This document shows positions 1 through 50,950 of a stretch of DNA of 64,000 nucleotides, in pieces. The notes below the pieces were generated by a model. The model did no database searches. It was not told where the DNA came from and saw only the letters and a program-made list of their open reading frames with translations. Position 1 is the first letter of the stretch; each line of letters starts with the position of its first letter. The position numbers were made by a program, and so were the translations under genes. The stretch is from NCBI GenBank assembly GCA_018001015.1, contig JAGNIV010000012.1:39906-103905 (forward strand). The letters are read 5' to 3'. Source of the stretch: Phenylobacterium sp. (GTDB lineage Bacteria; Pseudomonadota; Alphaproteobacteria; Caulobacterales; Caulobacteraceae).

Positions 1-375
1 GAGCTGATCCTAGGCGCGGCAGGGGTCGACCTGACCTGCGTCGAGAACGGCGCCGAGGCGGTGGACGAGGCCGCGCGCGCCAACTTCGATCTGATCCTCA
101 TGGACATGCAGATGCCGGTGATGGACGGCCTGACCGCCATCCGCGCCATCCGTCGCCGCGAGAGCCGTGAGAAGGCGCCGCCGACGCCGATCTACACCCT
201 GACCGCCAACGCCATGCCCGAACACGCCCAGGCCTCCACCGAGGCCGGCGCCGACGGCCACATCACCAAGCCCATCACCGCCGACGGTCTGCTGCGGGTG
301 GTGGAGCAGGTGTGGAACGACAGGGCAGGGGCCGCGACCGAGTCCGAGCCGGAGGCGCGGGCCGCCCCGCACTAG
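1..375 (+). CDS. Hybrid sensor kinase, C-terminal receiver domain (5' partial)
   Basis: The reading frame is open from the first base of the window, so the gene starts upstream. The visible 124 codons are most of a response-regulator receiver domain: the phosphoacceptor aspartate sits in LILMDMQMPVMDG, followed by a Thr switch region (YTLTANAMPEHA) and the conserved lysine in HITKPIT. The MPVMDG motif and the alanine-rich tail are typical of receiver domains at the end of hybrid histidine kinases, but a stand-alone regulator cannot be excluded. The stop codon TAG lies within the CTAG that begins a repeat element. Confidence 0.8.
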   Translation, partial: ELILGAAGVDLTCVENGAEAVDEAARANFDLILMDMQMPVMDGLTAIRAIRRRESREKAPPTPIYTLTANAMPEHAQASTEAGADGHITKPITADGLLRVVEQVWNDRAGAATESEPEARAAPH

Positions 376-472
376 ATCACGATGGGCTTGGACGGAATCG
401 TCTGTGCGTTGAATGCTGATCTGATTTCAAGGTCATAGAGCCGGATTCAGGCTTCGAGAGAAGCCATCCGGC
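372..472 (+). repeat. Twin-hairpin CTAG-bounded repeat, copy 1
   Basis: This ~100 bp intergenic sequence is nearly identical in reverse complement to 44602-44707. It begins with the CTAG that contains the preceding gene's stop codon. It holds an imperfect hairpin, a TTTCAAGGTCATAG spacer and a second hairpin with arms around GCCGGAT/ATCCGGC. It lies between convergent genes and may act as a bidirectional terminator. The right end (CCCTAAG) is a degenerate CTAG. Confidence 0.8.
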
Positions 473-519
473 CCTAAGCGCAGCGCGATGCGTTCACCGA
501 TCCCCTGATGGCGTGCGGC

Positions 520-1110
520 TCAGAACCAGGTCAGGTCGGTGCGCCGCCCGTTCAGGATGACACCCTTCAGGCGGCCACGGCCGTCCTCCCCGGCTGAGAT
601 CACCGCGAAGGCCGTGGCGGGCGCGCCGGGGCGCCGGGCGCTCAGCGCCTTGTCGATCGCCTCAGCCTCAGCCTGGTCGGTGTGGAAGCGGTTGACGCCA
701 AGCTCCAACCGGACCACGGCCGGCCGGGCTTGCTCCTCGGTCGCGGGCGACGGCGCGTCGCAACCGGCCTGGCCCCGCAGGACGACGGGCCCGTGTCTGA
801 GCGCCTCGGCCCGAGTGGCGCCGCCGCCGGTCACCCGATCACCGGCCGCGGCGGGGCTCAGGGCGATCCAGCCCATCTTGCCCGGGACGGGAAGATCCGG
901 GGGACAGGGGGCGCCCGGAGGTAGGGTCTGGACGAGCTGCAGGGCGACATAGTGGCCCGTCAGCAGATCGCGCGGGTCCACCGCCTCCATGGCGATCGTC
1001 ACCTCGCGGCCGGCGGCGCGCGCCCGATCCTCGGCGATCACCAGGGCGACCAGGGCGACGGCCAGCAGCAGGCAGGCGCCCAGGATACGAAGCGGCAGGG
1101 CGCGGCTCAC
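520..1110 (-). CDS. GDYXXLXY-family membrane-anchored protein
   Basis: A 196-residue protein with one N-terminal hydrophobic segment (about residues 8-26) and a probable extracytoplasmic remainder. Residues 45-60 (DPRDLLTGHYVALQL) match the motif naming the GDYXXLXY family, with His replacing the usual Asp in GDY. Its start codon overlaps the stop of the DUF2157 gene (ATGA), so the two are translationally coupled, the standard arrangement for this family. The family's biochemical function is unknown; an envelope role is inferred. Confidence 0.8.
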   Translation of the reverse strand: MSRALPLRILGACLLLAVALVALVIAEDRARAAGREVTIAMEAVDPRDLLTGHYVALQLVQTLPPGAPCPPDLPVPGKMGWIALSPAAAGDRVTGGGATRAEALRHGPVVLRGQAGCDAPSPATEEQARPAVVRLELGVNRFHTDQAEAEAIDKALSARRPGAPATAFAVISAGEDGRGRLKGVILNGRRTDLTWF

Positions 1111-2171
1111 GACGTGACCCTCCGGCGCAGGAGCCAGCCGGCGGCGAGCACCACCAGGGCGCAGGCCCCGAACACGCCGGCGGCGGTGAGCAGGCCCAGG
1201 CCCAGGTCGAACAGGATGACGCCGCCGGCGGCGGCCAGGGAGACAATCCCCCCCGCGGTGATCGCCCCCTGGCGGTCAAGCAGACCGAGCGCGATCACCC
1301 CTCCCGACAGCACCAGCCAGACGCCGCGATGGACCAGCCGGGCCAGGTCGTGATCGCCGATCCCGGCGCTGGCGAAATAGATCAGGGCGCTCCAGATCGC
1401 CCAGCCGTAGACGATCGCGGCCAGGCCGTCACCACGGCCCGCGCGCCAGCGCATCGTCGCAGCCAGGACGGCGAACCCCGCCGCCGCCGCCAGGCATTCC
1501 AGCTGCCGATTGTCCCGTTCGTCGACCAGCATGAGCAGCAGGACGGCGATGGGCAGGGCGATCGCCGCGGCGTGGGCCACGGACCGTGAGCGCCAGACCC
1601 AGGCCAGCGCCAAACCCAGCGGCGCGGCGAAGGCGAGCCAGGGCGTCGGATGCTCCCCGACATCGAAAAGTCGCGGCGACAGGTCGCCCAGGGTCAGCAG
1701 CAGCAAGGCCGCCACCCCAGCCCCGGCCGAACGCCCGGCGACCGCCAGCAGCGCCGCCGCCAGACCCGCGCCCCGCAAGGCGGTCTGCGGGTCACCGGCC
1801 AGATCGAAGATCTGCCCGGTCAGGCCGATGGCCGCGGCATAGATCAGGGCCGCCACCAGCAGCAGGATGTCGCGCAGGACGGCGCGCGCGCCGCGCGCCG
1901 CCCAGGCCGCGCCCGCGCCGACTCCCAGGAACAGGACCAGGATCATCACAAAGCGCGCCAGGCGGGGAATGACGCCCCAGTTGGCCGCGACGAAGGCGAT
2001 GACCGCCACGCCCAGCAGCAGCCCGCCCACCGCCGCCAGGGCGGTGGAGGCGTCCAGGCGACGGCTGTCGACCACGCTGTCGAGGATCGGCTGGCGCGAG
2101 GCGGCGGGCGTCAGACCCTGGGCGATCCAACGGTCCAGGTCGCGCTCAAGCCGAGCCTTGTAGCTCGCCAT
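1107..2171 (-). CDS. DUF2157 polytopic membrane protein
   Basis: A 354-residue protein with a short soluble N-terminus (a helical SYKARLERDLDRWIAQGL region typical of DUF2157) followed by about ten hydrophobic segments. I chose the ATG at 2171 rather than the in-frame GTG at 2180 because a GAGGG element sits about 9 nt upstream. It overlaps the GDYXXLXY gene by four bases; the two families are commonly paired. Transport or envelope function is suspected but not established. Confidence 0.8.
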   Translation of the reverse strand: MASYKARLERDLDRWIAQGLTPAASRQPILDSVVDSRRLDASTALAAVGGLLLGVAVIAFVAANWGVIPRLARFVMILVLFLGVGAGAAWAARGARAVLRDILLLVAALIYAAAIGLTGQIFDLAGDPQTALRGAGLAAALLAVAGRSAGAGVAALLLLTLGDLSPRLFDVGEHPTPWLAFAAPLGLALAWVWRSRSVAHAAAIALPIAVLLLMLVDERDNRQLECLAAAAGFAVLAATMRWRAGRGDGLAAIVYGWAIWSALIYFASAGIGDHDLARLVHRGVWLVLSGGVIALGLLDRQGAITAGGIVSLAAAGGVILFDLGLGLLTAAGVFGACALVVLAAGWLLRRRVTS

Positions 2172-2249
2172 TCGGATCACCCTCGCCGCTTCCGGCGGGC
2201 AGCCTCGCTCAAGACCGCCCCGCGGGCAAGCCGGTCGTCCCTCGCGCGC

Positions 2250-2834
2250 TCAGTCCGCGGCGGGCGAGCCCGGCGTCAGGCGCAGGAAGCAGACCCGCGC
2301 GGCGCCGTAGTCGCGCGCGTCCAGCACCTCGAAGCCTTCGACGCTGAAGGCGGGCTCGGCCGAGCCGCGCTCGAAGACGATCAGCGCCTCGGGGGCCAGC
2401 CAGCCGCCGTCGCGCAGCTTGGCCAGCGCCACCTCGCCCAAGCCCTTGGCGTAGGGCGGGTCGAGAAAGGCCAGGTCGAAGGCCGGGCCATCGGCGCCGG
2501 GACGTTGGCCAAGGTCGATGGCCGAACGACGGTGAACCCGACTGCGGCCGAACAGGCTCATCGCATCGATGTTCTCGCGGATCGCCCCCCGAGCCGCCTC
2601 GTCCGTCTCCACGAACAGGCAGAAGGCCGCGCCGCGTGAGAGCGCCTCCAAGCCCAGAGCCCCGGAGCCGGCGAACAGGTCGATGACCCGCAGGTCGCGC
2701 AGGCCTTTCGACCAGGCGGCGTGCTCCAGGATGTTGAACACCGCCTGACGGGCGCGGTCGGAGGTGGGGCGGGTGGCGTCACCGGCCGGCGTGACGATCG
2801 CCTTGCCCCGGAGGTCGCCCGATACGATGCGCAT
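2250..2834 (-). CDS. rsmD: 16S rRNA (guanine(966)-N(2))-methyltransferase RsmD
   Basis: A 194-residue class I SAM-dependent methyltransferase of normal RsmD length. It begins MRIVSGDLRGK, the RsmD signature start. The SAM-binding loop VIDLFAGSGALGLEALSRG lies near residues 50-68, and the catalytic motif is FLDPPY. It modifies N2 of G966 in 16S rRNA during 30S assembly. The frame stays open far upstream, but only this ATG gives the conserved N-terminus. It is divergent from the adjacent crotonase gene. Confidence 0.95.
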   Translation of the reverse strand: MRIVSGDLRGKAIVTPAGDATRPTSDRARQAVFNILEHAAWSKGLRDLRVIDLFAGSGALGLEALSRGAAFCLFVETDEAARGAIRENIDAMSLFGRSRVHRRSAIDLGQRPGADGPAFDLAFLDPPYAKGLGEVALAKLRDGGWLAPEALIVFERGSAEPAFSVEGFEVLDARDYGAARVCFLRLTPGSPAAD

Positions 2835-2927
2835 GAAGTCCCTCGAAGAATCGCGGCGCGACCTTGCCTGCTCGCGTCGCGCGCTCCAAGCTCGGGGAAA
2901 ATCGAAAATCAGGTATGGAGAAGATTG

Positions 2928-3722
2928 ATGAGCTACGTCACCGTGGAACGCAGGGGCGGTTGCGCCGTGATCACCTATGCCAACCCGCCATTGGGGACCA
3001 TGACGGCCGAGGGCTCGCGGGAGATGTACGCGGCGGTGAAGGCGGCCTCCGACGATCCCGCCGTGCGCTCCATCGTGCTGACCGGCGGCCTGCCGGGGAT
3101 CTTCGTGCGCTCCTACGATGTGGGGGAGTTGTCCACCGCCAGCGACGCCACGGCGCCCGGCGCGGCGGCCACGCCTGCGCCCAGCGCCCCGCCTGCCCCA
3201 GGCTTCCTGGAATTGATCGACCTGCTGGCCGCCGCAGAGAAGCCCGTGGTGGCCGCGATCAACGGCCTGTGCATGGGCGGCGGGTTCGAGATGTCGCTCG
3301 CCTGCGACCTGCGGATCGCGGGAACCGCCGTGACCGCCATCGGCCTGCCCGAGACGCGGGTCGGCATCTTCCCCGGCGGCGGCGGCACTCAGCGCCTGCC
3401 GCGCGTGGTGGGCGAGGCCAAGGCCCTGGAGATGATCCTTCGCGGCCTGGTGGTGAACGCCGCCGAGGCCCTGAGGATCGGCCTGGTGCACGAACTGGCC
3501 GCAGATCCCCTGGCGCGCGCCCTGGAGATCGCGGGCGAATGGGACAGCCGGGGCGCCGACGGGATCGCCTACGCCAAGCGGCTCATCCGCGCCGCTTTGG
3601 ACCGCCCCTTGGCGCAGGGCCTGGCGGACGAGCGGGCGAGCTTTGCGGCCGTGATGATGACGGACTCGGCCCGCGCGGGCCTGAAGGCCGCCCGGCCGCC
3701 GGCGGAGATCCGGAACGCTTAG
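2928..3722 (+). CDS. Enoyl-CoA hydratase/isomerase family protein
   Basis: A 264-residue crotonase fold. Both general acid/base glutamates of true hydratases seem present: one in MGGGFEMSLACD and one in PETRVGIFPGGGG. The first oxyanion-hole segment is unusual (TGGLPGIFVRSYDV instead of the FSAGAD type), so the substrate is uncertain. It is translated from the ATG at 2928; the open frame upstream has no homology. Its 3' end overlaps the antisense tail of rluB by 140 bp. Role: probably fatty acid or branched acyl-CoA breakdown. Confidence 0.88.
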   Translation: MSYVTVERRGGCAVITYANPPLGTMTAEGSREMYAAVKAASDDPAVRSIVLTGGLPGIFVRSYDVGELSTASDATAPGAAATPAPSAPPAPGFLELIDLLAAAEKPVVAAINGLCMGGGFEMSLACDLRIAGTAVTAIGLPETRVGIFPGGGGTQRLPRVVGEAKALEMILRGLVVNAAEALRIGLVHELAADPLARALEIAGEWDSRGADGIAYAKRLIRAALDRPLAQGLADERASFAAVMMTDSARAGLKAARPPAEIRNA

Positions 3723-5082
3723 GCTCTCGGGGCGCATCGTGCGCGGCGGACCTGGGCGACTTGCCGCCGTCCGGGCGGGGGCCCTTGAAGCGGTCGGGTC
3801 GCCGGGAGTCGGCCTTGGGGCCCTCCTGGCGCTTGGGAACGGCGCCGGTCTTGGCGGTATTGGGGCGCGGCCCCGAACGCGGCGCGTCGGGGCGTGGGGC
3901 CTTGGCGCGATCCGGACGCGGGGCGTCTGACGACGGGCCGTCCCGTCGCGCAGGCCGGGCTTCCGCGCGGGGCGCCTCAGGGCGCGGCGCGCGCGGCTCG
4001 GTCCGTTGGGCGGCCAGGCGCGCGTCGGAGCGGGGGGGCCGGGCCGGAATGGCGGCGGGACGGACCTGGGCGGCGGGACCGGCCGGCTTCGGCTTGGCCT
4101 TGCGCTTGGGATGGGGGCTTGGTGCGATCTTGGGCTTGGCCCAGCCGGCCTTGTAGGTGGTCTTGGGCTTGGCCGGCATGCCGTCGTCGGGACCGGTGTG
4201 GTGGCCGGCGCCCGGCGCGGTGCGGCCCCGGCGCTGGACATCGCCGCCGGCGTGGGTGGCGATGGGTTTGGAGAACTGGGCGCGGTCGCCGGTGGGCAGG
4301 TTTCCCGGCGCGATATGGTCGGAGAACTGCTCGCGGATCACGCGGGGACCCACCTCCTCGATCTCGCCGACCGCCAGGGTTCCGAGCGCCAGCGGGCCGT
4401 AGGACATGCGGATCAGGCGGTTCACGGTGAGGCCCAGGGCCTCCAGCACGCGGCGGACCTCGCGGTTCTTGCCCTCGGCCAGGGTCAGGGTGATCCAGAC
4501 ATTGGCGCCCTGGGAACCTTCCTTGGCCTTGTCCAGATGGGCCTCGATGGCGCCGTAGTTGACGCCCTCGACGGTGATCCCGTCCTTCAGGCTGTCGAGC
4601 TTCTCCTGGGTGACCCGGCCCCGGGCGCGGGCCCGGTAGCGGCGCACGATGGCGCTGGAGGGCAGTTCGAGGGCGCGGGCCAGGCCCCCGTCATTGGTCA
4701 GCAGCAGCAGGCCCTCGGTATTCAGGTCAAGGCGGCCGACCGAGATCAGGCGCGGCAGGGCCTTGGGCAGGGCGTCGAACACCGTGGGGCGTTCCTGGGT
4801 GTCCTTGTGGGTGGTCACCAGGCCGACGGGCTTGTGATAACGGAACAGGCGGGCGGGCTCGGCAGCCTGGACCAGGGCGCCGTCTACGGTGAGGATGTCG
4901 TCGGCCTCGACCTTGGTGGCGGGCGTCGTCACCCGCACGCCGTTGACGAACACGCGGCCGGCCTCGATCAGCCGCTCCACCTCGCGGCGGGAGGCGACGC
5001 CGGCCCGCGCCATGGCCTTGGCGATGCGTTCGCCGCCTTGACCTTGGGGGTCGTCCTGGGTGTCTTGGGGATCGTGGATCAT
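3583..5082 (-). CDS. rluB: rRNA pseudouridine synthase, RluB type, with long basic tail
   Basis: A 499-residue protein. An S4 RNA-binding domain (about residues 20-75, RIAKAMARAGVASRREVERL) is followed by the RsuA/RluB synthase domain with the catalytic aspartate in GRLDLNTEGLLLLTNDGG. The enzyme isomerises a uridine in 23S rRNA. From about residue 300 onward the chain becomes a Pro/Arg/Lys/Ala-rich low-complexity tail ending GGPKRRG, probably a disordered RNA-binding extension. The last ~46 codons overlap the 3' end of the convergent crotonase gene. Start set at MIHDPQD. Confidence 0.9.
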   Translation of the reverse strand: MIHDPQDTQDDPQGQGGERIAKAMARAGVASRREVERLIEAGRVFVNGVRVTTPATKVEADDILTVDGALVQAAEPARLFRYHKPVGLVTTHKDTQERPTVFDALPKALPRLISVGRLDLNTEGLLLLTNDGGLARALELPSSAIVRRYRARARGRVTQEKLDSLKDGITVEGVNYGAIEAHLDKAKEGSQGANVWITLTLAEGKNREVRRVLEALGLTVNRLIRMSYGPLALGTLAVGEIEEVGPRVIREQFSDHIAPGNLPTGDRAQFSKPIATHAGGDVQRRGRTAPGAGHHTGPDDGMPAKPKTTYKAGWAKPKIAPSPHPKRKAKPKPAGPAAQVRPAAIPARPPRSDARLAAQRTEPRAPRPEAPRAEARPARRDGPSSDAPRPDRAKAPRPDAPRSGPRPNTAKTGAVPKRQEGPKADSRRPDRFKGPRPDGGKSPRSAAHDAPREPKRSGSPPAAGRPSGPRGPSPSSSRPQSSPARPPGPAPRGGPKRRG

Positions 5083-5094
5083 GATTTTCGCACC

Positions 5095-5547
5095 ATGCGC
5101 ATCGCGCTCGAAGCCGCGCAAGCCGCAGCCGACCGTGGCGAGACCCCGGTGGGCGCCGTGGTGGTCGATCCGGCCACAGGCGAGGTGATCGCCGTGGGCG
5201 CCAACCAGCCCATCGGGGCCCACGATCCCACCGCCCATGCCGAGATCGTGGCGCTGCGAGCGGCGGCGGAAAAGCTCGGCAACTACCGGCTCACCGGCCT
5301 GACCCTGGTGGTGACGCTCGAGCCCTGCGCCATGTGCGCCGGGGCCATCAGCCACGCGCGGATCGGCCGGGTGGTGTTCGGCGCCGACGACGCCAAGGGC
5401 GGGGCGGTGGTCCATGGGCCGCGCTTCTTCGAGCAACCCACCTGCCACTGGCGGCCGGAGGTCACCGGCGGGGTGCTGGCCGACGAGAGCTCGGCGCTGC
5501 TGAAGGGCTTCTTCAAGGCGCGGCGCAAGACCAAGGAGGTTCCATGA
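5095..5547 (+). CDS. tadA: tRNA-specific adenosine-34 deaminase TadA
   Basis: A 150-residue zinc deaminase that makes inosine-34 in tRNA-Arg(ACG). The zinc/proton shuttle motif HAE lies in DPTAHAEIVALR and the zinc cysteines in LEPCAMCAGA; NQPIGAHDPTAHAE matches TadA closely. The usual N-terminal helix (DxxxMRxAL) suggests that translation may instead begin at an in-frame GTG at 5074, which would overlap the divergent rluB start at 5082. No clear Shine-Dalgarno precedes the ATG at 5095. It is coupled to the next gene by an ATGA overlap. Confidence 0.93.
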   Translation: MRIALEAAQAAADRGETPVGAVVVDPATGEVIAVGANQPIGAHDPTAHAEIVALRAAAEKLGNYRLTGLTLVVTLEPCAMCAGAISHARIGRVVFGADDAKGGAVVHGPRFFEQPTCHWRPEVTGGVLADESSALLKGFFKARRKTKEVP

Positions 5548-7688: not shown

Positions 7689-7814
7689 GGTCATTCCCCC
7701 CAGGAACTTGTGTTCGCCGCAAGGAACCCCCCTGCCCCTGCGGCGGTCAATGCTTGTCAGGTGGCCAGCGCGGTTCGATGATGCGGGATAATTAAATTCA
7801 TAGGGAGAACGACC

Positions 7815-8693: not shown

Positions 8694-8700
8694 GAGGCGT

Positions 8701-8850
8701 AGCCCTCCCCCTCGATGGGGGAGGGTTGGGTGGGGGTGTGACTGCTGAGTTGAGGTGAAGGTAGAGGTGGCGCCGGCGCCGACCTTGGAATTCCCGCAGC
8801 GCTCTGTACTCACCCCCATCCCTGCCCTTCCCCCATCGAGGGGGAAGGAG
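8701..8850. repeat. Palindrome-armed intergenic repeat (CCCTCCCCCTCGATGGGGG type), copy 1
   Basis: A ~150 bp intergenic element with a near-perfect palindrome at each end (8703-8725 and about 8825-8848). The arms are separated by TTGGGTGGGGGTGTG / CACCCCCATCCCTG segments and a GGCGCCGGCGCC-like centre. It is homologous in reverse orientation to 33188-33349. It sits between convergent genes and ends right at the GNAT stop codon, so it may double as a terminator. Confidence 0.85.
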
Positions 8851-8851
8851 A

Positions 8852-13819: not shown

Positions 13820-13821
13820 GC

Positions 13822-23694: not shown

Positions 23695-23864
23695 TGGCGG
23701 CGCCGCGAGAGCCGTGAAGGACGGTTAAAACCCCCTCGGACCTGGTATACCAGGTGGGCGCCATATGCCCGGGCCCACGAGCCCGGACAGGGACAGCTCC
23801 CGTAGAGAGAATTAAGGTCTCTGGGATTTGTTGCCTTCGACGAGATCCGCAGCAGACCCGCCGG
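23695..23864 (-). ncRNA. ssrS: Candidate 6S RNA
   Basis: The non-coding stretch immediately upstream of fau on the same strand is the conserved genomic location of 6S RNA. The sequence includes a TCCCAGAGACCTTA block comparable with E. coli TCCCCTGAGCCGATA, G/C-rich complementary ends (GGCGGG near the 5' end, GGCGCCGCC near the 3' end) and a strong internal hairpin. A sigma-70 promoter lies just upstream. 6S RNA binds RNA polymerase-sigma70 holoenzyme in stationary phase. Ends are approximate; no covariance model was run. Confidence 0.68.
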
Positions 23865-33187: not shown

Positions 33188-33349
33188 AGGAACCTCCCTT
33201 CCCCCTCGATGGGGGAAGGGTCGGGGATGGGGGTGCGTGCAGGGTGACGAGGCGTAGGTCAGGGTCGGCGTCGGCGCCCAGCGGCGCTGTTCGCCCCACC
33301 TCCACAGACACACCCCCACCCAACCCTCCCCCATCGAGGGGGAGGGCTT
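33188..33349. repeat. Palindrome-armed intergenic repeat, copy 2
   Basis: Homologous in inverted orientation to 8701-8850, including both terminal palindromes (33196-33220 and 33324-33346), the CACCCCCACCCAACCC segment and the GTCGGCG core. The last arm ends in GGAGGG, eight bases before the pbpC start codon, so the repeat seems to provide the ribosome binding site and to sequester it in a hairpin. Confidence 0.85.
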
Positions 33350-33354
33350 CGGAC

Positions 33355-38055: not shown

Positions 38056-38078
38056 GGTCTCACGGTCGGAGCGCGCCC

Positions 38079-42877: not shown

Positions 42878-42942
42878 GTGGCTGTGCTTCCCCACGCCCG
42901 CACGGCTTTGCGGGGACAGTCCTAATTTCTGGAGAGTCTTCA

Positions 42943-43664: not shown

Positions 43665-43685
43665 CGAACCCGACACGGGGTTGAG

Positions 43686-43731
43686 GGGTTCCGGAAGGGA
43701 CGGGCGCATCGCGCCCCCTAATCCGGAACCC
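43686..43731 (+). promoter_or_regulatory. Inverted repeat in the sod leader
   Basis: Perfect 10 bp arms GGGTTCCGGA (43686-43695) and TCCGGAACCC (43722-43731), with a GGGCGCATCGCGCCC inner hairpin. The right arm ends three bases before the sod ATG and includes its only GGA-like ribosome binding site. It could act as terminator of the DUF883 operon or limit translation of sod. Confidence 0.6.
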
Positions 43732-43734
43732 AAC

Positions 43735-44406
43735 ATGTTCGAACTGCCGCCCCTGCCCTACGATCACGCCGCGCTTGAGCCGGTGATCTCGCGCGCCACG
43801 ATGCGTCTGCATCACGGAAAGCATCACAAGAAGTACGTCGAAACCCTGAATGAGCTGCTGGCCGACGCCACGCCCAGGAGCCTGGAAGAGGTGGTCCGCG
43901 AGGCCTTTGCAGACGACGAAAAGCGCAAGCTGTTCAACAACGCCGCCCAGGCCTGGAACCATACCTTCTTCTGGAACGCCATGAGCGCGCGCCGCCAGAG
44001 CCTTGAAGGCTCGCTGATCCAGGCCGTGGCCCGCGACTTCGGCGGGGTCGAGGCCCTGAAGGCCGCCTTCGTCAAGGAAGGCGCCGCCCACTTCGCGTCA
44101 GGCTGGGTCTGGCTGGCGGCCGAAGGCGAGGCCCTCAAGGTGCTCTCCACCCACGACGCCGAGGACCTGCTGATCCACCGGGGCCTGACGCCGCTCCTGG
44201 TCTGCGACCTGTGGGAGCACGCCTATTATCTGGACCATGAGAACGACCGCAAAGGCTTCCTGAACGCCTGGTTCGACGCCCTGCCAAACTGGAGCTTCGC
44301 CGAGCACCAGTACGCCGCGGCCCGCGGAGAGGGGAAGGCGTGGACCCACCCCGCGCCGGTTGCGGAGGCCTCGGGAACGGCTGCGGTTGGCGCACGTTCG
44401 AACTAG
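43735..44406 (+). CDS. sodB: Superoxide dismutase, Fe/Mn family (Fe type)
   Basis: A 223-residue SOD. Metal ligands are recognisable: His in [15 protein letters not shown], His in [10 protein letters not shown], and Asp/His in [23 protein letters not shown]. The NHTFFW and ligand-flanking residues favour the iron type. The chain continues about 25 residues past the normal end as an Ala/Gly-rich tail. No signal peptide, so cytoplasmic. The 3' end of the gene contains an EcfG promoter for the next gene. Confidence 0.93.
44374..44398 (+). promoter_or_regulatory. EcfG-type promoter inside the 3' end of sod
   Basis: GGAAC (44374-44378), 16 bp, CGTT (44395-44398). It lies within the last codons of sod and 37 bp before the DUF1328 start, giving that gene its own stress promoter. 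Confidence 0.75.
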
Positions 44407-44434
44407 GTACGCAAACCAACCGGAGTTTCCCCCA

Positions 44435-44605
44435 ATGCTGAGCTGGGCCCTGACCTTCCTGGTGGTCGCCTTGATCGCCGGCCTCCTCGGCTTCACCTCC
44501 ATCGCGGGCGCCGCGATGGGTGTCGCCAAGATTCTGTTCTTCGTCTTCCTGGTGCTGTTCGTGGTCAGCCTCGTCATGCACCTCGTCCGCGGGCGCAGCG
44601 CCTAG
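44435..44605 (+). CDS. DUF1328 small membrane protein (YtjA-like)
   Basis: A 56-residue protein consisting almost entirely of two transmembrane helices: [20 protein letters not shown] and [23 protein letters not shown]. This is the DUF1328/YtjA family, small inner-membrane proteins often in stress regulons. An exact EcfG promoter precedes it. CCGGAG lies 10 bases before the ATG. A paralogue is at 48639-48812. Its TAG stop lies in the CTAG that begins a repeat element. Confidence 0.88.
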
Positions 44606-44707
44606 AGCCGGATGGCTTCTCTCGAAGCCTGAATCCGGCTCTATAACTTTGAAATTAGATCACGATTCAACGCTCAGACGACTTCGTCTAAGCGCATCGT
44701 GATCTAG
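44602..44707 (-). repeat. Twin-hairpin CTAG-bounded repeat, copy 2 (intact)
   Basis: The 106 bp element begins and ends with CTAG. First hairpin: AGAGCCGGAT / ATCCGGCTCT arms with inner GGCTTC/GAAGCC. Spacer TATAACTTTGAAATTA. Second hairpin: TAGATCACGA / TCGTGATCTA with inner AGACGA/TCGTCT. It matches copy 1 (372-472) in reverse complement. The first CTAG holds the DUF1328 stop codon. It lies between convergent genes. Confidence 0.85.
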
Positions 44708-44788
44708 CCACGCCCCGGATGATCGCGAAAATCCGCGCCTCCGACCTGGTCGGGGGCGCGTTTTGCTATCGGTGGCGATGCAGAGGGT

Positions 44789-45565
44789 CTAGCGCCGGGT
44801 CAGGGACCAGGTTTGCTGCGGCTCGAATTTCGAACCACTCCAGGCCAGGGCGGTGACCCGAATCTCGGCGACGTCGGTCTCGACGAGATTGAAGCTGGGG
44901 GGCACGCCGCGTTCGCGCACCGACAGGGTGCCGCAGCCAGCCGCATAGGTTTTCCCGTCGCCGTAGCCATAGGGCCAGGTGAAAGGGGCGTGGATGTGCC
45001 CCGACAGCACCAGGTCGACCCCCGCCTCGGCGAAGGCCTTGGCGGCGGCCTCCCCGTTCCAGACCTTGCCGGTCATCGGCCCGCCGATCATCTCGGTCAG
45101 GGGATGGTGGCAGACCACGATCTTCAGCGACTCGGCCGGAGCCGCGGCGAACCAGGCCAGCGCCTCCTCCACCTGACGCCGCGAGATCTGACCCTTGGAC
45201 CAGTTCGCGCGAGGCTGCACGCCGCGGGCGGTGTTGAGGCCATAGACCGCGAGGCCCGGGGCCAGATGGGTCTGGAAACGAGCCCGGCCGATGGCCCGCT
45301 CGTAGCGGGCGAAGGGGGTGAAGAGGCGGTCGTACCAGGCGAGATACGGCGCGTCGTGATTGCCAGGGGTCACCAGCTGGGGCTCGGGAAGCTGCCTCAG
45401 CCAGGCGGCGGCCGACGCGAACTCGCCCTTCTCCCCGAACCGGGTGAGATCTCCGGAGACCACCACCAGATCGAGGCGATCGGTCGCGAGCCATTCACGC
45501 ACCGCCGCCACGGCCTCGACGTTCTCGCCGCCGAAGTGGATGTCCGACAGATGGGCGATACGCAT
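44789..45565 (-). CDS. Cytoplasmic metallophosphoesterase (CpdA-like)
   Basis: A 258-residue calcineurin-like phosphoesterase. Metal motifs in order: AHLSDIHFGG, VVVSGDLTRFGE, VTPGNHDAPY, VVCHHPLTE, and LSGHIHAPF. This set is typical of CpdA/Icc-type cyclic-nucleotide phosphodiesterases, though many members act on other phosphodiesters. It starts at ATG 45565, sharing one base with the stop of the preceding lipid-kinase-like gene, so the two are coupled. Confidence 0.9.
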   Translation of the reverse strand: MRIAHLSDIHFGGENVEAVAAVREWLATDRLDLVVVSGDLTRFGEKGEFASAAAWLRQLPEPQLVTPGNHDAPYLAWYDRLFTPFARYERAIGRARFQTHLAPGLAVYGLNTARGVQPRANWSKGQISRRQVEEALAWFAAAPAESLKIVVCHHPLTEMIGGPMTGKVWNGEAAAKAFAEAGVDLVLSGHIHAPFTWPYGYGDGKTYAAGCGTLSVRERGVPPSFNLVETDVAEIRVTALAWSGSKFEPQQTWSLTRR

Positions 45566-46452
45566 CAATGCTCCGCCTTGGGGTCTGGCGCCCTCGGCGG
45601 GGCCAGCACGCGGGCGACCTCGCTCTTCCAGCTCACCTGGACACTGGCCCTCAGCCGCGCGGGTTCGCCGTCCAGCACGGCGGGAATGCCGCTCGACGCC
45701 CAGAGCCGCGCCTGGCGGCAGGCGATGGACTGCACCGCCGGGTCGTCACGCCAGTCGCCCATGACGCTGGCGAGGCCGATTCGCAGCGCCTCAGCCACGC
45801 CGGCCGGATCGAGGGCCGCAGCCTCCAGGAACTGGTCATCATCCTTGAGGGCCCTCGAAGCGATGGGACACATGAAGGTCATGGCCTCGGCCTTGCCGCG
45901 CGTGGCCCCGTCCAGGCTGTAGCGCAGCCGGCCAGAGAAGGCGCGGCGCCAGGCGCGGCGGGCGCGGTGGAAGGCGATCAGCGGCCGGCCCTCGCGCACC
46001 GCCTCGCGCGCGGGCGCCAGCAGGGCGCCCGAGCCGAGGATGGCGGCGACGAGGAACAGCCGGCCGTCCACGATCCCGCCGCCCAACGGGCGTTCCACGC
46101 CGTGCTCCAGGGTGTCGCGCAGGGCAGCCTTCCAGTCGGTGGTTCCGTAGACCGCCTTGGGCAGCATGTTCATGGTGCCACCCGGCAGCGGCGCGATCCG
46201 AGGGCCATGCATGCCACAGAGCTCCGCAGCAGCCCGGGCGGTGCCGTCCCCGGCCAGGATCACCAGCAGGTCCGGCCCCCGGTCGATGGCGGCCTGCAGA
46301 CAGGCCGAGAGCTCACCGTTCTCCGGCACGCAGACATTCGTTTGGCCGCCGAACTCCGCCAGGATGGCGCGCGCTTCTTCTGGAGCGCCTGGACCGACAC
46401 TGCCCGAGGCGGTGTTGGCGATCAGTTCGATGCTGCGGATGTTCGCCCCCAT
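45565..46452 (-). CDS. Diacylglycerol kinase family (YegS-like) lipid kinase
   Basis: A 295-residue protein with the DAGK catalytic fold: ELIANTASGSVG at the start, the nucleotide motif VILAGDGTARAAAEL near residue 65 and IAPLPGGTMNMLPKAVYG. The gap between GGDGT-like and PGGTxN motifs is normal. It would phosphorylate diacylglycerol or a related lipid. The motif reads AGDGT where most have GGDGT. It is followed, with overlap, by a phosphoesterase. Confidence 0.88.
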   Translation of the reverse strand: MGANIRSIELIANTASGSVGPGAPEEARAILAEFGGQTNVCVPENGELSACLQAAIDRGPDLLVILAGDGTARAAAELCGMHGPRIAPLPGGTMNMLPKAVYGTTDWKAALRDTLEHGVERPLGGGIVDGRLFLVAAILGSGALLAPAREAVREGRPLIAFHRARRAWRRAFSGRLRYSLDGATRGKAEAMTFMCPIASRALKDDDQFLEAAALDPAGVAEALRIGLASVMGDWRDDPAVQSIACRQARLWASSGIPAVLDGEPARLRASVQVSWKSEVARVLAPPRAPDPKAEH

Positions 46453-46459
46453 GAAAGCC

Positions 46460-46777
46460 TCAGCTTTCCGTCTGGCGGAAGGTCTTGGTCCCTAGGTCGC
46501 GGCCGGCGTCCATCACCACGGGCTGGGCGCGTTCGGTGGCCACGGCCAGGCCATGATCGACAATGCCGCCGCCGCGAGCAAACGAGCCTTCCTTGGCGGC
46601 CAGGATCAGGACCACGGCGCCCACCAGGGCGACGGCGAAGGTCAGGGTCATCATGATCGGGTGACGCTTGCGCGCCTTGCGCTCGTCGCGGCGGCCGCGG
46701 GCATAGGCGTCCTGGACCTCGCGCTCGTCAGTCGCCAGGCTCGGGCTCGAAATCGGGGTGCGGCGTTTCCACAGCAT
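46460..46777 (-). CDS. Small single-pass membrane protein with EcfG promoter
   Basis: A 105-residue protein: charged N-terminus (MLWKRRTPISSPSLATDEREVQDAYARGRRDERKARKRHP), a transmembrane segment (MMTLTFAVALVGAVVLILAA, about residues 43-62), then a polar C-terminal tail. I do not recognise the family. An exact EcfG promoter lies 36 bp upstream on the same strand, so it is probably part of the stress regulon. It may be co-transcribed with the DAGK and phosphoesterase genes, which follow 7 bp later. Confidence 0.75.
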   Translation of the reverse strand: MLWKRRTPISSPSLATDEREVQDAYARGRRDERKARKRHPIMMTLTFAVALVGAVVLILAAKEGSFARGGGIVDHGLAVATERAQPVVMDAGRDLGTKTFRQTES

Positions 46778-46812
46778 GGTCGTGGCCTTCGGTCGCGGAT
46801 GGGGACTCACGA

Positions 46813-46837
46813 AACGGTGGAGGCTGTTAGGGGTTCC
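46813..46837 (-). promoter_or_regulatory. EcfG-type promoter (minus strand)
   Basis: On the - strand GGAAC (46833-46837), 16 bp, CGTT (46813-46816), 36 bp upstream of the 46777 start. Confidence 0.78.
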
Positions 46838-46942
46838 GGGCGGGAGCCCGGGAAACGCCAAGCGTCGCCATGCGTTGCCCCTGTGGATGGCTATGCCACG
46901 GCGCTAGGCTATGGTGGCGGCTGGTTCGAAGAGGGTGTGCTC

Positions 46943-47401
46943 ATGACGATGGTTCGTGGACTTGGCGCGGCGGTTCTGGTGGTGGCCATCCTGGGGGCGG
47001 GCTGCACGACAATGACCAGCGCGCGCGACCGGATCGTCAAGCGTGAGGCGAGCTGCGGCGACGTCACCGTCGACATCTATTTCGAGCCTGACTCCGCCGA
47101 GGTCACCAAGGAAGGCCGCGCCGTTCTGCGCGCCGCCGCCGATCAGGCCAAGGGCTGCCAGGTGGACAAGGTGCTGGTGATGGGCTTGGCCGACGCCGCC
47201 GGCGCGCCGGGCGCCAACCTGGAGCTTTCCAGGCAGCGCGCCGCAGCGGTCACCAAGACGCTGACAGCCATCGGACTGCCGGTCGGCGACATCGATCTGA
47301 GCGCCGCGGGCCAGACCGGGTCCGTCACCGCCGCGGGCGATAACCGGCCCCTTCGCCGTCGCGCCGATGTCACCCTGAAGCTGTCGACGCCCCGAAAATA
47401 G
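46943..47401 (+). CDS. OmpA-family lipoprotein
   Basis: A 152-residue protein. Signal peptide with lipobox (VVAILGAGC, lipidated Cys near residue 21), then an OmpA-like peptidoglycan-binding domain: VDIYFEPDSAEVTKEGRAVL, VMGLADAAGAPGANLELSRQRAAAV and RPLRRRADVTLKL. It is outer-membrane anchored by lipid and attached to peptidoglycan through the OmpA domain. Start at MTMVRGLG; the frame upstream is not coding. Divergent from the small membrane gene at 46777. Confidence 0.87.
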   Translation: MTMVRGLGAAVLVVAILGAGCTTMTSARDRIVKREASCGDVTVDIYFEPDSAEVTKEGRAVLRAAADQAKGCQVDKVLVMGLADAAGAPGANLELSRQRAAAVTKTLTAIGLPVGDIDLSAAGQTGSVTAAGDNRPLRRRADVTLKLSTPRK

Positions 47402-47432
47402 CGCGGGCTCGCGCAGAGGACGCAAAAAGAAG

Positions 47433-47517
47433 GGCGGCTCCGGGGAGAGCCGCCTTGAAGGTATGCACATCGAGATTGGGGGGTGCGAAGGCGGCAGGCC
47501 GGCGTGTGCGCCGGCCT
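47433..47517 (+). terminator. Two successive hairpins after the OmpA gene
   Basis: Stem 1: GGCGGCTC / GAGCCGCC (47433-47440, 47447-47454) with a 6 nt loop, followed by only TT. Stem 2: AGGCCGGCG / CGCCGGCCT (47496-47504, 47509-47517) with TGTG loop. Neither has a proper T-run, so termination is uncertain. Confidence 0.4.
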
Positions 47518-47603
47518 CAAGTCGGGGGGGCGTCGCCGCCTTCGCAACTATCAAACTCACCCGCGATTCCTTGGTTCCCGCTCCGCGCGCGTTTTTTCCG
47601 AAT

Positions 47604-47930
47604 TTATTTCGCCTCCAGATCCACCGCCGGCATGGAGTCGAACTCCGCCTTGCTCAGGGGGATAACGAAGCGGTCGCCCTCAGGGCTCAGGGCCTTGTAG
47701 GGCAGGCTGCGAGGGCCGGCGGCCCGCGCGCCCTTCGGCTGCACCAGCACCTGCAGCGGACGGCCGTCGGCGCCGGTGATCACCTTGGCGATCGTCCCGA
47801 GCACCGCGCCATCGGCGGCGCGCACCTCACGCCCTTCCAGGGCTGAGCCTTGGGCTGAGGCAAGGTTCGCGACGGCGAACATAAGACCGGCGGCGAGGCC
47901 GGCGGCGAGAACGTGTCTGGGCTTGATCAT
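47604..47930 (-). CDS. Secreted PRC-barrel domain protein
   Basis: A 108-residue protein: signal peptide (KPRHVLAAGLAAGLMFAVANLASAQ), then a PRC-barrel-like domain (SALEGREVRAADGAVLGTIAKVITGADGRPLQVLVQPKG). Start set at ATG 47930. PRC-barrel domains bind other proteins or RNA; secreted versions are common in alphaproteobacterial stress regulons. No exact EcfG promoter precedes this one. Confidence 0.8.
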   Translation of the reverse strand: MIKPRHVLAAGLAAGLMFAVANLASAQGSALEGREVRAADGAVLGTIAKVITGADGRPLQVLVQPKGARAAGPRSLPYKALSPEGDRFVIPLSKAEFDSMPAVDLEAK

Positions 47931-48005
47931 GGTGCTCAATAGATGGGGAGGCCGTGACCTCATTGCGACCATCTTGCGCCGGCGCACCTGAACCGTCGAT
48001 GAGCG

Positions 48006-48030
48006 GGAACAGCAGAACGACTATGGCGTT
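48006..48030 (+). promoter_or_regulatory. EcfG-type promoter for the 48078 gene
   Basis: GGAAC (48006-48010), 16 bp, CGTT (48027-48030), 48 bp before the start codon. Confidence 0.78.
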
Positions 48031-48077
48031 TGCCAGATGCGGGCGTCCGGTCCGCGCCAGAACTCGGGGGTCCCCCA

Positions 48078-48281
48078 ATGATCCGCAACTTTGACGCGTC
48101 CGATGAGATCGTCCTCTTCACCACGCCAAGCCCACACCAACGTCAGGCGCGCCGCCGCTCGGCCGCCATCGCGGTGATCGTCGCGATCGCCTTCGCCGGC
48201 GGTCTGATCGGCCAGCTCAGCACGGCGCGTGACGCCGCTGGCCCGGTTCCCCCTGGTCCATTCAGTTATTTCCCGCACTAG
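48078..48281 (+). CDS. Small single-pass membrane protein, stress-controlled
   Basis: A 67-residue protein, MIRNFDASDEIVLFTTPSPHQRQARRR followed by a transmembrane segment (SAAIAVIVAIAFAGGLIGQL) and a short Pro-rich tail. No family recognised. It is preceded by an exact EcfG promoter and followed 19 bp later by another small membrane-protein gene; the two probably form a stress-induced operon ending at the 48589-48617 terminator. Confidence 0.72.
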   Translation: MIRNFDASDEIVLFTTPSPHQRQARRRSAAIAVIVAIAFAGGLIGQLSTARDAAGPVPPGPFSYFPH

Positions 48282-48300
48282 GTAACAAGGAGCCACCCCC

Positions 48301-48567
48301 ATGGCCGTCCTCTCCCGCCATTCCGACCACCCTATCCTCAACGCCACCCGCGCCCGCCAGGGCCGGTTTGGCCGGCACGTCTTCTGGGTGCTGCTGGTCT
48401 CCACCGCGCTGGCCGCCATGGCCCTGTTCGGCGCCTGGACCTGGCAGGCCGACAACCTGGCCTCCACCGAGGTGAACAACGCTCGTCAACCCGCCGACGC
48501 CCAGGCCTTCAAGATGGGCGCCCCGGCCGAGGGCACGCTGCAGACCGCTCCGGACGCTCCACGCTAG
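48301..48567 (+). CDS. Small single-pass membrane protein, second gene of stress unit
   Basis: An 88-residue protein with a basic N-terminus (RHSDHPILNATRARQGRFGRH), one transmembrane helix (VFWVLLVSTALAAMALFGAWTW, about residues 27-48) and a polar, Pro/Ala-rich extracytoplasmic tail. AAGGAG precedes the ATG. Not assignable to a family. Its position after the 48078 gene and before a strong terminator marks it as the end of the stress-controlled unit. Confidence 0.72.
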   Translation: MAVLSRHSDHPILNATRARQGRFGRHVFWVLLVSTALAAMALFGAWTWQADNLASTEVNNARQPADAQAFKMGAPAEGTLQTAPDAPR

Positions 48568-48588
48568 GTCTCGCGCGCCTTTGAATGC

Positions 48589-48617
48589 AAAACGGCCGCC
48601 CGATGGGCGGCCGTTTT
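48589..48617. terminator. Bidirectional terminator
   Basis: Perfect 13 bp inverted repeat AAAACGGCCGCCC / GGGCGGCCGTTTT with a GAT loop. It gives a T-run on both strands between the convergent small membrane genes. Confidence 0.9.
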
Positions 48618-48638
48618 CATGTCCGGCGTCCGGCGTGC

Positions 48639-48812
48639 TTACAGCACCGACTGGCCCCGCACCGCGCGCAGGACGAAGCTGGCCACCAGCAGCACCAGGA
48701 AGAGCGCAAACAGCACCTTGGCCACGGTGGCCGCAAGGCCGGCCAGGCTCATGAAGCCCAGAAAACCCGCCACGATGGCGAGGACGGCGAAGGTCAGGGC
48801 CCAACCCAGCAT
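48639..48812 (-). CDS. DUF1328 small membrane protein, second copy
   Basis: A 57-residue protein with two transmembrane helices: MLGWALTFAVLAIVAGFLGF and TVAKVLFALFLVLLVASFVLRAV, ending RGQSVL. It is a clear paralogue of the protein at 44435-44605 (MLSWALTF..., [10 protein letters not shown]...). CGGGAG lies 10 bases before the start. Unlike the first copy I found no exact EcfG promoter upstream. Confidence 0.88.
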   Translation of the reverse strand: MLGWALTFAVLAIVAGFLGFMSLAGLAATVAKVLFALFLVLLVASFVLRAVRGQSVL

Positions 48813-48911
48813 CAGATCTACTCCCGAAACGTTGCGCGCCCGTTCGCGGACGCCTCGACACGAAAACGCCGGCGCGAGGCCGGCGTTCCGCTCAAGCTCA
48901 GGCTCGGGAGA

Positions 48912-49706
48912 TCAGGCCGCTTGCTTGGCGTTCCGGGGATGGAAGAACAGGGCCTGGCCGATCGCCGCCTTCACCGTTTCCGGCTGGAAGGGCTTGGTGA
49001 TCAGGAAGGTCGGCTCCGGGCGCTCGCCGGTCAGCAGGCGTTCGGGGAAGGCGGTGATGAAGATCACCGGCACGTCGTATCGCGCCAGGATGTCCTTGAC
49101 GGCGTCAATGCCGGAAGACCCGTCGGCCAGCTGGATATCGGCCAGGACCAGGCCGGGGACCTTGCGGTTGACCGCGTCCACCGCTTCGGTGCGAGTGGCG
49201 GCGATGTCGACCACCGTGTGGCCAAGCTCAGTGACCAGGGCCTCGATGTCGGCGGCGATCACCGGCTCGTCCTCGATGATCAGGACGTCGGTGGCCAGTT
49301 CGGCGTCGATCTCCTGCTGGGCTTCGCTGATCAGGTTTTCGACCTCGGCGAAGTCGGCGCCCAGGATCTGGGCGGCCTCCGACGGCGTGAAGCCCTCCAG
49401 CGCGGTAAGCAGGAAGGCCTGGCGCGACCGGGGCGCGATCCGCATCAGGCGGCCGCTGGCGTCGTCGCTGGTGACCCCACCGTCGCGGGGCTCAAGCTTG
49501 GCGCCCGTGCTCAGCCAGATGGCGTGGAAGACATGATAGAGGGCCACGCGGGGCGTGAAGTTGGCCTCCAGAACCCGCTCGCCCGCGGCCAGCGCTTCCA
49601 GCGCGACCCGGACGTAGTGGTCGCCAGTGGTCTGATCCCCCGTCAGCGCGCGGGCGTAACGGCGCACATAGGGCAGATGGGGCGCCAATCGGGCTAGCAG
49701 ACTCAA
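48912..49706 (-). CDS. phyR: General stress response regulator PhyR
   Basis: A 264-residue anti-anti-sigma response regulator. An N-terminal EcfG-like sigma domain (LARLAPHLPYVRRYARALTGDQ... to residue ~130, including TPSEAAQILGADFAEVENLI) is followed by a receiver domain with phosphoacceptor Asp190 (LVLADIQLADGS). When phosphorylated it sequesters NepR and frees EcfG. I start it at a TTG at 49706, with GGGAGG 8 bases upstream, because this reproduces the family's MSLLARLAPHLP N-terminus. It is divergent from nepR-ecfG, with its own EcfG promoter. Confidence 0.95.
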   Translation of the reverse strand: MSLLARLAPHLPYVRRYARALTGDQTTGDHYVRVALEALAAGERVLEANFTPRVALYHVFHAIWLSTGAKLEPRDGGVTSDDASGRLMRIAPRSRQAFLLTALEGFTPSEAAQILGADFAEVENLISEAQQEIDAELATDVLIIEDEPVIAADIEALVTELGHTVVDIAATRTEAVDAVNRKVPGLVLADIQLADGSSGIDAVKDILARYDVPVIFITAFPERLLTGERPEPTFLITKPFQPETVKAAIGQALFFHPRNAKQAA

Positions 49707-49782
49707 GGTGGTACCCTCCCCGTTTAGGAACACGCGACCGCTCCGGGAAACCTCCGCGGCAGCGCTCACCTATAGCGCCGGA

Positions 49783-49807
49783 AACGTCGCTGTGGGGAAC
49801 CGGTTCC
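49783..49807 (-). promoter_or_regulatory. EcfG-type promoter of phyR
   Basis: On the - strand GGAAC (49803-49807), 16 bp, CGTT (49783-49786). Its -35 overlaps that of the divergent nepR promoter in the palindrome GGAACCGGTTCC. Confidence 0.88.
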
Positions 49808-49821
49808 CTAAAGTCTGCGTT
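49796..49821 (+). promoter_or_regulatory. EcfG-type promoter P1 of nepR-ecfG
   Basis: GGAAC (49796-49800), 17 bp, CGTT (49818-49821). Divergent from and interlocked with the phyR promoter. Confidence 0.88.
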
Positions 49822-49833
49822 TTGTTCATCCTG

Positions 49834-49944
49834 GAGCGCATTAGGGTTAGGTGGAATCCGTTTGACCCACTTGATGCGCCCTACGCTTTTGAAGCTAGAG
49901 CCTTTTTGAGCACACCAGTTGATTTCATCCAATCCTGACGGGCT
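49834..49944 (+). repeat. Twin-hairpin repeat family, copy 3 (degenerate)
   Basis: About 110 bp, homologous in reverse complement to 50834-50950: GAGCGCATTAGGGTTAGGTG at one end, a spacer ending in TAGAGCC, and a TGATTTCATCCAATCCTGACGGGCT end. It lies within the nepR 5' leader between promoters P1 and P2, so would be present in the P1 transcript. The terminal CTAG boundaries are degraded. Confidence 0.75.
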
Positions 49945-49960
49945 ATCGGGGCCTGGCATG

Positions 49961-49985
49961 GGAACCGGAATCGGAGCGGGGCGTT
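49961..49985 (+). promoter_or_regulatory. EcfG-type promoter P2 of nepR-ecfG
   Basis: GGAAC (49961-49965), 16 bp, CGTT (49982-49985). A transcript from it would begin near 49992, after the in-frame TTG at 49984, which argues for an internal ATG as the nepR start. Confidence 0.72.
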
Positions 49986-50043
49986 GACGGGCGACGATGA
50001 CCAATCGAGGGGGCAAGCGCCGCGTAAGCGGAGCGCCGAGGAC

Positions 50044-50232
50044 ATGATTGAACACACACCCACTGAGGACCGGCGGAAGGTCTCCGCCGCCCTCGACGAA
50101 GCCCGGCTGCGTCAGCAGGCGATCGGCGCGCGGCTGCGCCAGATGTTCGACGAAGTGGTCAATGAACCGGTGCCCGACGAGTTTCTCGATATCCTTCGCA
50201 AGGCTGACAAGCGTTCCTCGGAGAGCAGCTGA
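50044..50232 (+). CDS. nepR: Anti-sigma factor NepR
   Basis: A 62-residue anti-sigma factor (82 residues if the TTG at 49984 is used). The core ALDEARLRQQAIGARLRQMFDEVVNEPVPDEFLDILRKAD is the NepR two-helix motif that clamps EcfG. NepR releases the sigma factor when phosphorylated PhyR binds it. Its stop overlaps the ecfG start, ensuring balanced synthesis. I prefer the ATG at 50044 because a second EcfG promoter ends at the TTG, and the extra 20 residues are not part of the NepR fold. Confidence 0.92.
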   Translation: MIEHTPTEDRRKVSAALDEARLRQQAIGARLRQMFDEVVNEPVPDEFLDILRKADKRSSESS

Positions 50233-50837
50233 TGGCGGGGGACAACTCCAAGAACGCCAGCCGGACGCCGGTGGAGGAGGAGGCGTTCAAACGTGAGTTG
50301 GTCAAGCTGATCCCCCACCTGCGCGCCTTCGCCCGCACCCTGGCCGGGGAGCCGGCGGGGGCCGACGACCTGGCTCAGGACGCCATGATGAAGGCCTGGG
50401 ACGCCCGCAACTCCTTCCAGATGGGCACCAACATGAAGGCCTGGACCTTCATGATCCTGCGCAACCAGTTCTATTCCGAGAAGCGCCGCTCCTGGCGCCA
50501 GAGCCAGCTCGACCAGGAGGCCGCCGAGCGCACCCTCGTGGCGGTGGACGATCCCGAGGCGCCCGTCGCCCTCGATGAACTGCGCCTTTCTCTGGCCATG
50601 CTGCCCGCCGAACAGCGCGAAGCCTTGGTGCTGGTGGGGGCCGGGGGCTTCGCCTACGAGGAAGCCGCCGAGATCTGCAACTGCGCCGTCGGCACCGTGA
50701 AGAGCCGGGTCAGCCGCGCACGGCGCGCCCTGCACGCGATCCTCGACGACGGAGCCTATGAGCGCGATGGTGGAGCCGCCGGCGACGCCATGCGCTCCAT
50801 CCTCGCGGATGCGGAGCGCCTCTCAAGCGCCCGCTAG
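50232..50837 (+). CDS. ecfG: General stress sigma factor EcfG (SigT-like)
   Basis: A 201-residue ECF sigma factor of group ECF15. Region 2 (LIPHLRAFARTLAGEPAGADDLAQDAMMKAWDARNSF) binds core polymerase and the -10; region 4 (LPAEQREALVLVGAGGFAYEEAAEICNCAVGTVKSRVSRARRAL) has the helix-turn-helix for the GGAAC -35. It starts inside the nepR stop. It recognises the eight promoter matches in this region, including its own two. The TAG stop lies in the CTAG starting a repeat. Confidence 0.95.
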   Translation: MAGDNSKNASRTPVEEEAFKRELVKLIPHLRAFARTLAGEPAGADDLAQDAMMKAWDARNSFQMGTNMKAWTFMILRNQFYSEKRRSWRQSQLDQEAAERTLVAVDDPEAPVALDELRLSLAMLPAEQREALVLVGAGGFAYEEAAEICNCAVGTVKSRVSRARRALHAILDDGAYERDGGAAGDAMRSILADAERLSSAR

Positions 50838-50950
50838 GGCCTTTTAGGATCAGATGGAATCATCTGATCCGTCCAGAAAGGCTCTAATTCAAAGAGGTAG
50901 AGCGCGTCGGAGGGGTTAACCGGTTTCCACTTAACCCTAACGCGCTCTAG
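50834..50950 (+). repeat. Twin-hairpin CTAG-bounded repeat, copy 4 (intact)
   Basis: 117 bp bounded by CTAG at both ends (50834-50837 and 50947-50950). Hairpin 1 has GGATCAGAT / ATCTGATCC, the spacer TAATTCAAAGAGG, and hairpin 2 has TAGAGCGCGT / ACGCGCTCTA. The first CTAG holds the ecfG stop codon. It is an inverted counterpart of 49834-49944, so nepR-ecfG is bracketed by inverted copies, and it ends 15 bp before phyK. Confidence 0.85.

Follow-up and report, generated by a model that had tools for sequence, protein, structure and literature searches.

Four related elements lie within the 64,000-nucleotide stretch of Phenylobacterium sp. contig JAGNIV010000012.1 that we analysed (hereafter the window). 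Three of them begin in the in-frame stop codon of a gene, namely those for a hybrid kinase with a C-terminal response-regulator domain, a DUF1328 protein, and an EcfG-type sigma factor (Table 1). Both the four elements and their fusion to stops had been noticed in a reading of the same DNA from its letters alone (the sequence-only reading), and both are borne out. A pattern search of the 4.0-Mb genome (G000) identified 39 intact elements, each with two hairpins and bounded by CTAG. We estimate a probability of roughly 85% that these are miniature inverted-repeat transposable elements (MITEs) of the IS630 (Tc1/mariner-type) group that entered TA within CTAG and are found mainly at stop codons. 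In description they match the Caulobacter CcrM-associated intergenic repeats (CIR).

Table 1. Elements, element parts and neighbouring genes in the window
Feature	Position	Strand	Remarks
C-terminal receiver domain of (hybrid kinase) gene	1..375	+	Pfam Response_reg; TAG stop within the CTAG of the 372 element
F3 element	372..477	-	CTAG 372-375, CTAA 474-477; 89% complementary to the 44602 copy over 115 nt
DUF1328 gene	44435..44605	+	Pfam PF07043; ends in the first CTAG of the 44602 element
Intact F3 element	44602..44707	+	two hairpins, CTAG at both ends; from sequence, folding and relatives
Decayed F2-like element	49834..49944	+	lacks CTAG at its ends; precedes ecfG; relative G067 matches without a break across it
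EcfG-type sigma factor gene	50232..50837	+	Pfam Sigma70_r2, Sigma70_r4_2, PhyR_sigma2; ends in the first CTAG of the 50834 element
Intact F2 element	50834..50950	+	CTAG at both ends, two hairpins
Inner box GGAATC of the 50834 element	50856..50861	+	15 nt inward of TAGGGC; holds GANTC
Inner box GGAAAC, other end of the 50834 element	50923..50928	-	identical 15-nt spacing

The plan proposed in the sequence-only reading, CTAG, hairpin, spacer, hairpin and again CTAG, describes the copies starting at 44602 and 50834, which fold into two hairpins with z scores of -8.9 (44602-44707) and -6.5 (50834-50950, folded from 50836). It does not describe the other two, since the far end of the 372 copy (z -3.2) reads CTAA, so that the second CTAG is absent, and the 49834-49944 copy folds weakly (z -1.7) and has CTAG at neither end. 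The 44602 and 372 copies, which lie in opposite orientations, belong to one subfamily (F3, 106 bp) and the 50834 and decayed 49834 copies to another (F2). Six copies beyond the window, four in G000 and two in relatives, likewise consist of two hairpins and a linker (z -6.7 to -10.7). An Rfam scan gave no family at the window elements up to an E value of 1.

With lengths of 97 to 119 bp, the 39 genomic copies are short and leave no room for a transposase gene, as in MITEs. A prefix script placed each in one of four subfamilies whose ends line up: F1 (17 copies, 117-118 bp), F2 (8 copies, 110-117 bp), F3 (9 copies, 106 bp) and F4 (5 copies, 97-119 bp). The reversed pattern, used as a control, gave 50 matches, but these are of a different, GATC-containing motif, and the 39 were accepted on their sequence and subfamily fit instead. 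When the other end was required to be TA followed by a base other than G, eight matches were obtained, of which one, the 372 copy of the window, is element-like (judged by eye on the first 80 letters). Copies with both ends decayed are invisible to either pattern. The best 80 of 578 named ecfG loci contain no intact element by pattern.

The fusion to stops holds across the genome. In 28 of the 39 elements at least one end is the TAG stop of a called gene, and in 13 both ends are, each serving one of two convergent genes; the calls were made by a codon-usage caller trained on the window, which missed the DUF1328 gene at 44602 and would otherwise have raised 28 to 29. Where a gene 3' end lies within 30 bp of an element end, it falls exactly on the CTAG stop in 41 of 44 cases. 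The 87 element-free CTAGs used for comparison (30 in the window and 57 in the flanks of 37 loci) comprise 28 stops, 35 intergenic sites and 24 coding sites. The excess of elements at stops is clear relative to all of these CTAGs (p = 4e-5) and moderate relative to the non-coding ones (p = 0.008), whereas stops shared by convergent genes, which hold those 13 elements, account for 4 of the 87 element-free sites (p = 4e-5). CTAG itself is scarce in the window (36 observed versus 73 expected from shuffles), and much of the stop-codon association is explained by the CTAG target. Convergent genes flank 24 of 38 elements (p = 7e-7, taking 25% as the expected share) in a count read by eye that omits locus L040, which lacks a called gene on one side, and that includes some short, weak gene calls among the neighbours.

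At many loci, relatives have the site without the element. At the 50834 locus, G067 (the nearest relative) and G008 have a single CTAG (...GCGCCCG CTAG GCGACGGGC...) and G009 is empty with GTAG, while in G065 the CTAG occupied by F2 in the window holds an F1 element instead. The 44602 locus is empty with a single CTAG in G067 and G008, has CTAA and no element in G065, and in G009 holds a different two-hairpin element in the same CTAG. With L034 (in G009) and L038 (in G067), this makes four loci at which a relative's element begins in the shared CTAG but is a different one; these cases were counted by eye, and the one at L038 has a clean left end and a rearranged right end. For the other 37 loci, the four relatives were searched with joined flanks, and junctions of -6 to +16 bases were accepted, with CTAG in or adjacent to them. 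Overall, 26 of the 39 loci could be aligned in at least one of the four relatives, 21 have an empty counterpart, and in 18 of these 21 at least one relative shows the single CTAG that an insertion at CTAG, as put forward in the sequence-only reading, would have left. The empty junctions number 54, of which 39 are CTAG and 15 are not; in G067, CTAG is found in 14 of 17. Unrelated inserts or rearrangements occupy 11 locus comparisons. Separately, the flank of L001 (positions 32-129 of the joined-flank query) contains another repeat of about 98 bp that has many copies in each of the four relatives.

The ends of the elements match those of an IS630-type insertion sequence (IS). Inward-facing TAGAGC was found within 700 bp at 24 of 41 loci with a DDE_3 (IS630) match, and on both sides at 8 of the 41. 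Seven IS copies complete with both ends, 967-1063 bp long, all read Y-TA-GAGC...GCTC-TA-G; four begin in CTAG and three in TTAG (T-TA...TA-G). A 4-bp duplication would put TTAG on both sides, and the three TTAG/CTAG copies therefore argue for duplication of TA. An IS630-associated composite transposon reportedly transposes preferentially to the TA in 5'-CTAG-3', according to the title of a 1991 paper by Tenzen and Ohtsubo. An eighth IS copy, in G166, is 1.5 kb long with CTAG on both sides. The transposase of the G008 copy matches the NCBIfam IS630 model (NF033545, E 1.1e-44) and Pfam DDE_3. The copy that G000 has at the end of contig C52 shares 97% identity with this G008 copy across 1006 bp. 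Plasmid-borne IS630 copies from Polymorphobacter, Bradyrhizobium (two) and Sphingobium have identical ends and lie in CTAG in all four cases read, among 10 listed of 610 records. In loci L230 to L233, an IS630 element with other terminal repeats is accompanied by a segment of about 585 bp (for example L230:2716-3300) that carries TAGAGC at each end; this segment is perhaps intermediate between IS and MITE.

When lined up without gaps from the TA, the ends of both IS and MITEs have TAGAGC-N15-KGAANC in common. Twenty-four of 29 IS ends have the start of the inner box KGANNC at position 22, as do 41 of 61 distinct MITE ends. With a matrix made from the IS ends with TAGAGC omitted, 57 distinct MITE ends score -0.4, versus -21.4 for shuffles (standard deviation 1.1, maximum -17.3, 1000 sets), which is about 19 standard deviations above. 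GANTC lies in the box of exactly one end in 26 of the 39 elements, of neither in 13 and of both in none, and occurs anywhere in the element in 35 of 39. The box also holds GANTC in 15 of the 29 IS ends, at one end only in complete IS copies. These positions suggest that GANTC is retained as part of the transposase site.

The same motif could instead point to host sites, either CcrM-linked regulatory repeats or bidirectional terminators, that are placed and kept by selection and whose mobility is incidental. GANTC is far denser in the elements than in their flanks (10.6 versus 1.5 per kb), the prevalence of convergent neighbours would suit such sites, and the CIR literature, in the part available, speculates on CcrM (PMC2229807). 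However, the presence of GANTC at the same place in IS630 ends, the patchiness of insertions between close relatives and the lack of a terminator-like signal at the window elements scanned make this origin improbable, although the host may make secondary use of the elements. The sequence-only reading had supposed that the elements bring a terminator. A terminator consensus scan of window positions 44400-51100, a stretch that includes three of the four elements, gave no terminator-like site within any of the three; being a consensus scan, it does not exclude termination there. It did find a terminator-like hairpin at 44734-44760, downstream of the 44602 element, which may be the terminator of the DUF1328 gene itself in a displaced position.

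In the sequence-only reading the elements are non-autonomous, use CTAG as their insertion site, frequently where it is a stop codon, and leave the gene intact; this agrees with our data, most empty sites being a single CTAG. Its choice of an IS5-family (YTAR) enzyme making a true 4-bp CTAG duplication is probably wrong, and we rate MITEs of that family as very unlikely. CTAG at both ends and a single CTAG in empty sites would fit them equally well, and inward TAGAGC does occur near 3 of 30 loci (of 37 matches) with PF01609, which we take to be the model covering IS4/IS5-type enzymes; IS5 transposases under other Pfam models were not searched. However, none of the 30 has TAGAGC on both sides, the IS copies with such ends encode DDE_3/IS630 proteins, and identical 4-bp flanks, which the 39 pattern copies have by construction, fail in the three TTAG/CTAG IS copies and in the 372 copy of the window. 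Equally unlikely are repetitive extragenic palindromic (REP)-like elements moved by a REP-associated tyrosine transposase (RAYT; Y1_Tnp, acting on single strands) that would recognize the hairpins: both ends do have hairpins and four of five genomes have a Y1_Tnp gene, but of five Y1_Tnp loci one has inward TAGAGC, none has it on both sides and none has an intact element, and G065, a 91% complete assembly, lacks a Y1_Tnp match despite its 28 pattern matches and the F1 insertion at ecfG, so that a RAYT partner was rejected.

The common ends, the CTAG empty sites, the repeated use of the same sites and the stop fusion can be read from the sequences, and to these an IS630 origin would add action in trans, binding of the transposase to the box, duplication of TA by the MITEs and selection as a filter, which we infer. 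The mobile unit would be GAGC...GCTC, about 100 bp. At each end, an inverted repeat of the transposase site TAGAGC-N15-KGAANC would come directly after the site itself, giving the two hairpins. An IS630 transposase supplied in trans would insert the unit into a TA, preferably one within CTAG, and duplication of the TA would leave CTAG at both ends. CTAG is scarce, and about a third of element-free CTAGs are TAG stops; insertion at such a stop would rebuild it. Where two convergent genes share a CTAG as overlapping stops, both stops would be rebuilt, one at each end. Selection would remove insertions elsewhere, so that the surviving elements lie at the 3' ends of genes and in convergent intergenic regions.

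Several observations weigh against this account. For MITEs at a CTAG target, duplication of TA and of CTAG give the same product, and the distinction is decided for the IS copies only, of which three of seven are informative. The 29 IS ends were themselves selected by TAGAGC, so that the independent match consists of the inner box and the intervening stretch, and one F3 end has a box, GAAGCC, that is a poor match to KGAANC. No inward TAGAGC lies within 700 bp at 17 of the 41 DDE_3 loci, some being cut by contig ends and others having different terminal repeats. The IS630 of G000 is a single copy that runs into a contig end and is split into two overlapping frames. Since the pattern demands CTAG at both ends and so favours copies whose CTAG is preserved by a stop, the stop shares are upper estimates. 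Among the 15 non-CTAG junctions are those of all three relatives at L018, of both relatives at L020 and of the two empty ones at L034. Where no element is present, CTAG is conserved in 38 of 66 site-by-relative comparisons, and these junctions are thus in line with ordinary drift. The relatives' stretches were mostly near full-length flank matches among those listed, which biases the share of empty loci upward and junction identity less so. The 372 copy has no clean empty site, as the three relatives read have unrelated DNA downstream of the kinase gene. Lastly, elements do not track the transposase: among 101 genomes of the genus, those with a DDE_3 match (32) and those without (69) have median element numbers of 3 and 2 (p = 0.45), and a DDE_3 match is absent from both G009, which has 17 pattern matches, and G065, which also carries elements. 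That MITEs outlive their transposon would be the simplest reading, and we regard having to infer it as a weakness.

Pattern matches occur in 77 of the 101 genomes of the genus, with chance matches among those listed. Across the class, a stricter pattern matched 44 of 193 genomes, many with single matches that look like chance. Among the matches listed, two-hairpin families appear in several unrelated families, with 74 matches in G283, 16 in G239, 10 in G158 and 7 in G143; the G283 number is the highest among the 193 genomes.

A broader proposal, which we offer tentatively and hold to be rather unlikely as it stands, is that the alphaproteobacterial repeats known as CcrM-associated form a transposon family with stop codons as safe harbours, whose one-end GANTC box, shared by IS and MITEs, could allow CcrM methylation to time transposition to the period after replication. 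A precedent is known for IS10, the transposition of which is gated by Dam to the moment after replication.

Other features of the window were observed. Positions 49796-49821, just upstream of the decayed 49834 element, read GGAAC-N17-CGTT and resemble the EcfG-type promoter motif; if so, this element would sit in the 5' leader of a transcript reaching ecfG. Rfam matches above the gathering score correspond to the Caulobacter small RNA CC3552 (47433-47543, minus strand) and to 6S RNA (23696-23858, minus strand). Repeats that are G+C-rich and palindromic, of the CCCTCCCCC...GGGGGAGGG kind and unlike the CTAG elements, are located at 8698-8759, 8802-8848, 33197-33232 and 33290-33351.

The CIR of Caulobacter (CIR1-4) resemble the elements described here in their length of about 110 bp, their two long inverted repeats with a linker, their TA termini, their intergenic location, their division into four families and their occurrence in Alphaproteobacteria, as far as the available part of their description goes (PMC2229807). 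GANTC is placed there at the loop of one hairpin (PMC2229807), comparable to the box GANTC at exactly one end here. That text gives the target duplication as unknown, sees no terminal inverted repeat and calls for more data on mobility (PMC2229807). In contrast, we propose a target, ends and a partner transposon group, the likeness to CIR1-4 being one of description. In open-access literature, we found no prior account that identifies CIR with IS630 MITEs or places MITEs at CTAG stops, which is weak evidence of absence, as subscription work including Chen and Shapiro 2003 fell outside this scope. Repeats whose mobility stood open in 2007, by the part of that source available (PMC2229807), would thus receive a testable origin and insertion rule, and their conserved methylation site a simpler reading. 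A palindromic tetramer target with TAG on both strands would in addition let a transposon between overlapping convergent genes restore both stops.

The insertion target of IS630 elements is TA, which becomes duplicated, and members of the IS630/Tc1-mariner group such as ISY100 and IS630 have a DDE transposase, according to the accessible text (PMC2170065). The proposed partner is alike in these respects, whereas the elements themselves are too short for a transposase and have hairpinned ends. Another parallel is RUP of pneumococcus, proposed to be a MITE of IS630-Spn1 (PMC2229807, PMC3049150). The available portions of these sources do not mention stop-codon fusion or a CTAG target for RUP, but in its length of 107 bp, its IS630-Spn1-like ends, its TA-containing targets and its enrichment between convergent genes it is similar to the elements of the window (PMC2229807, PMC3049150).

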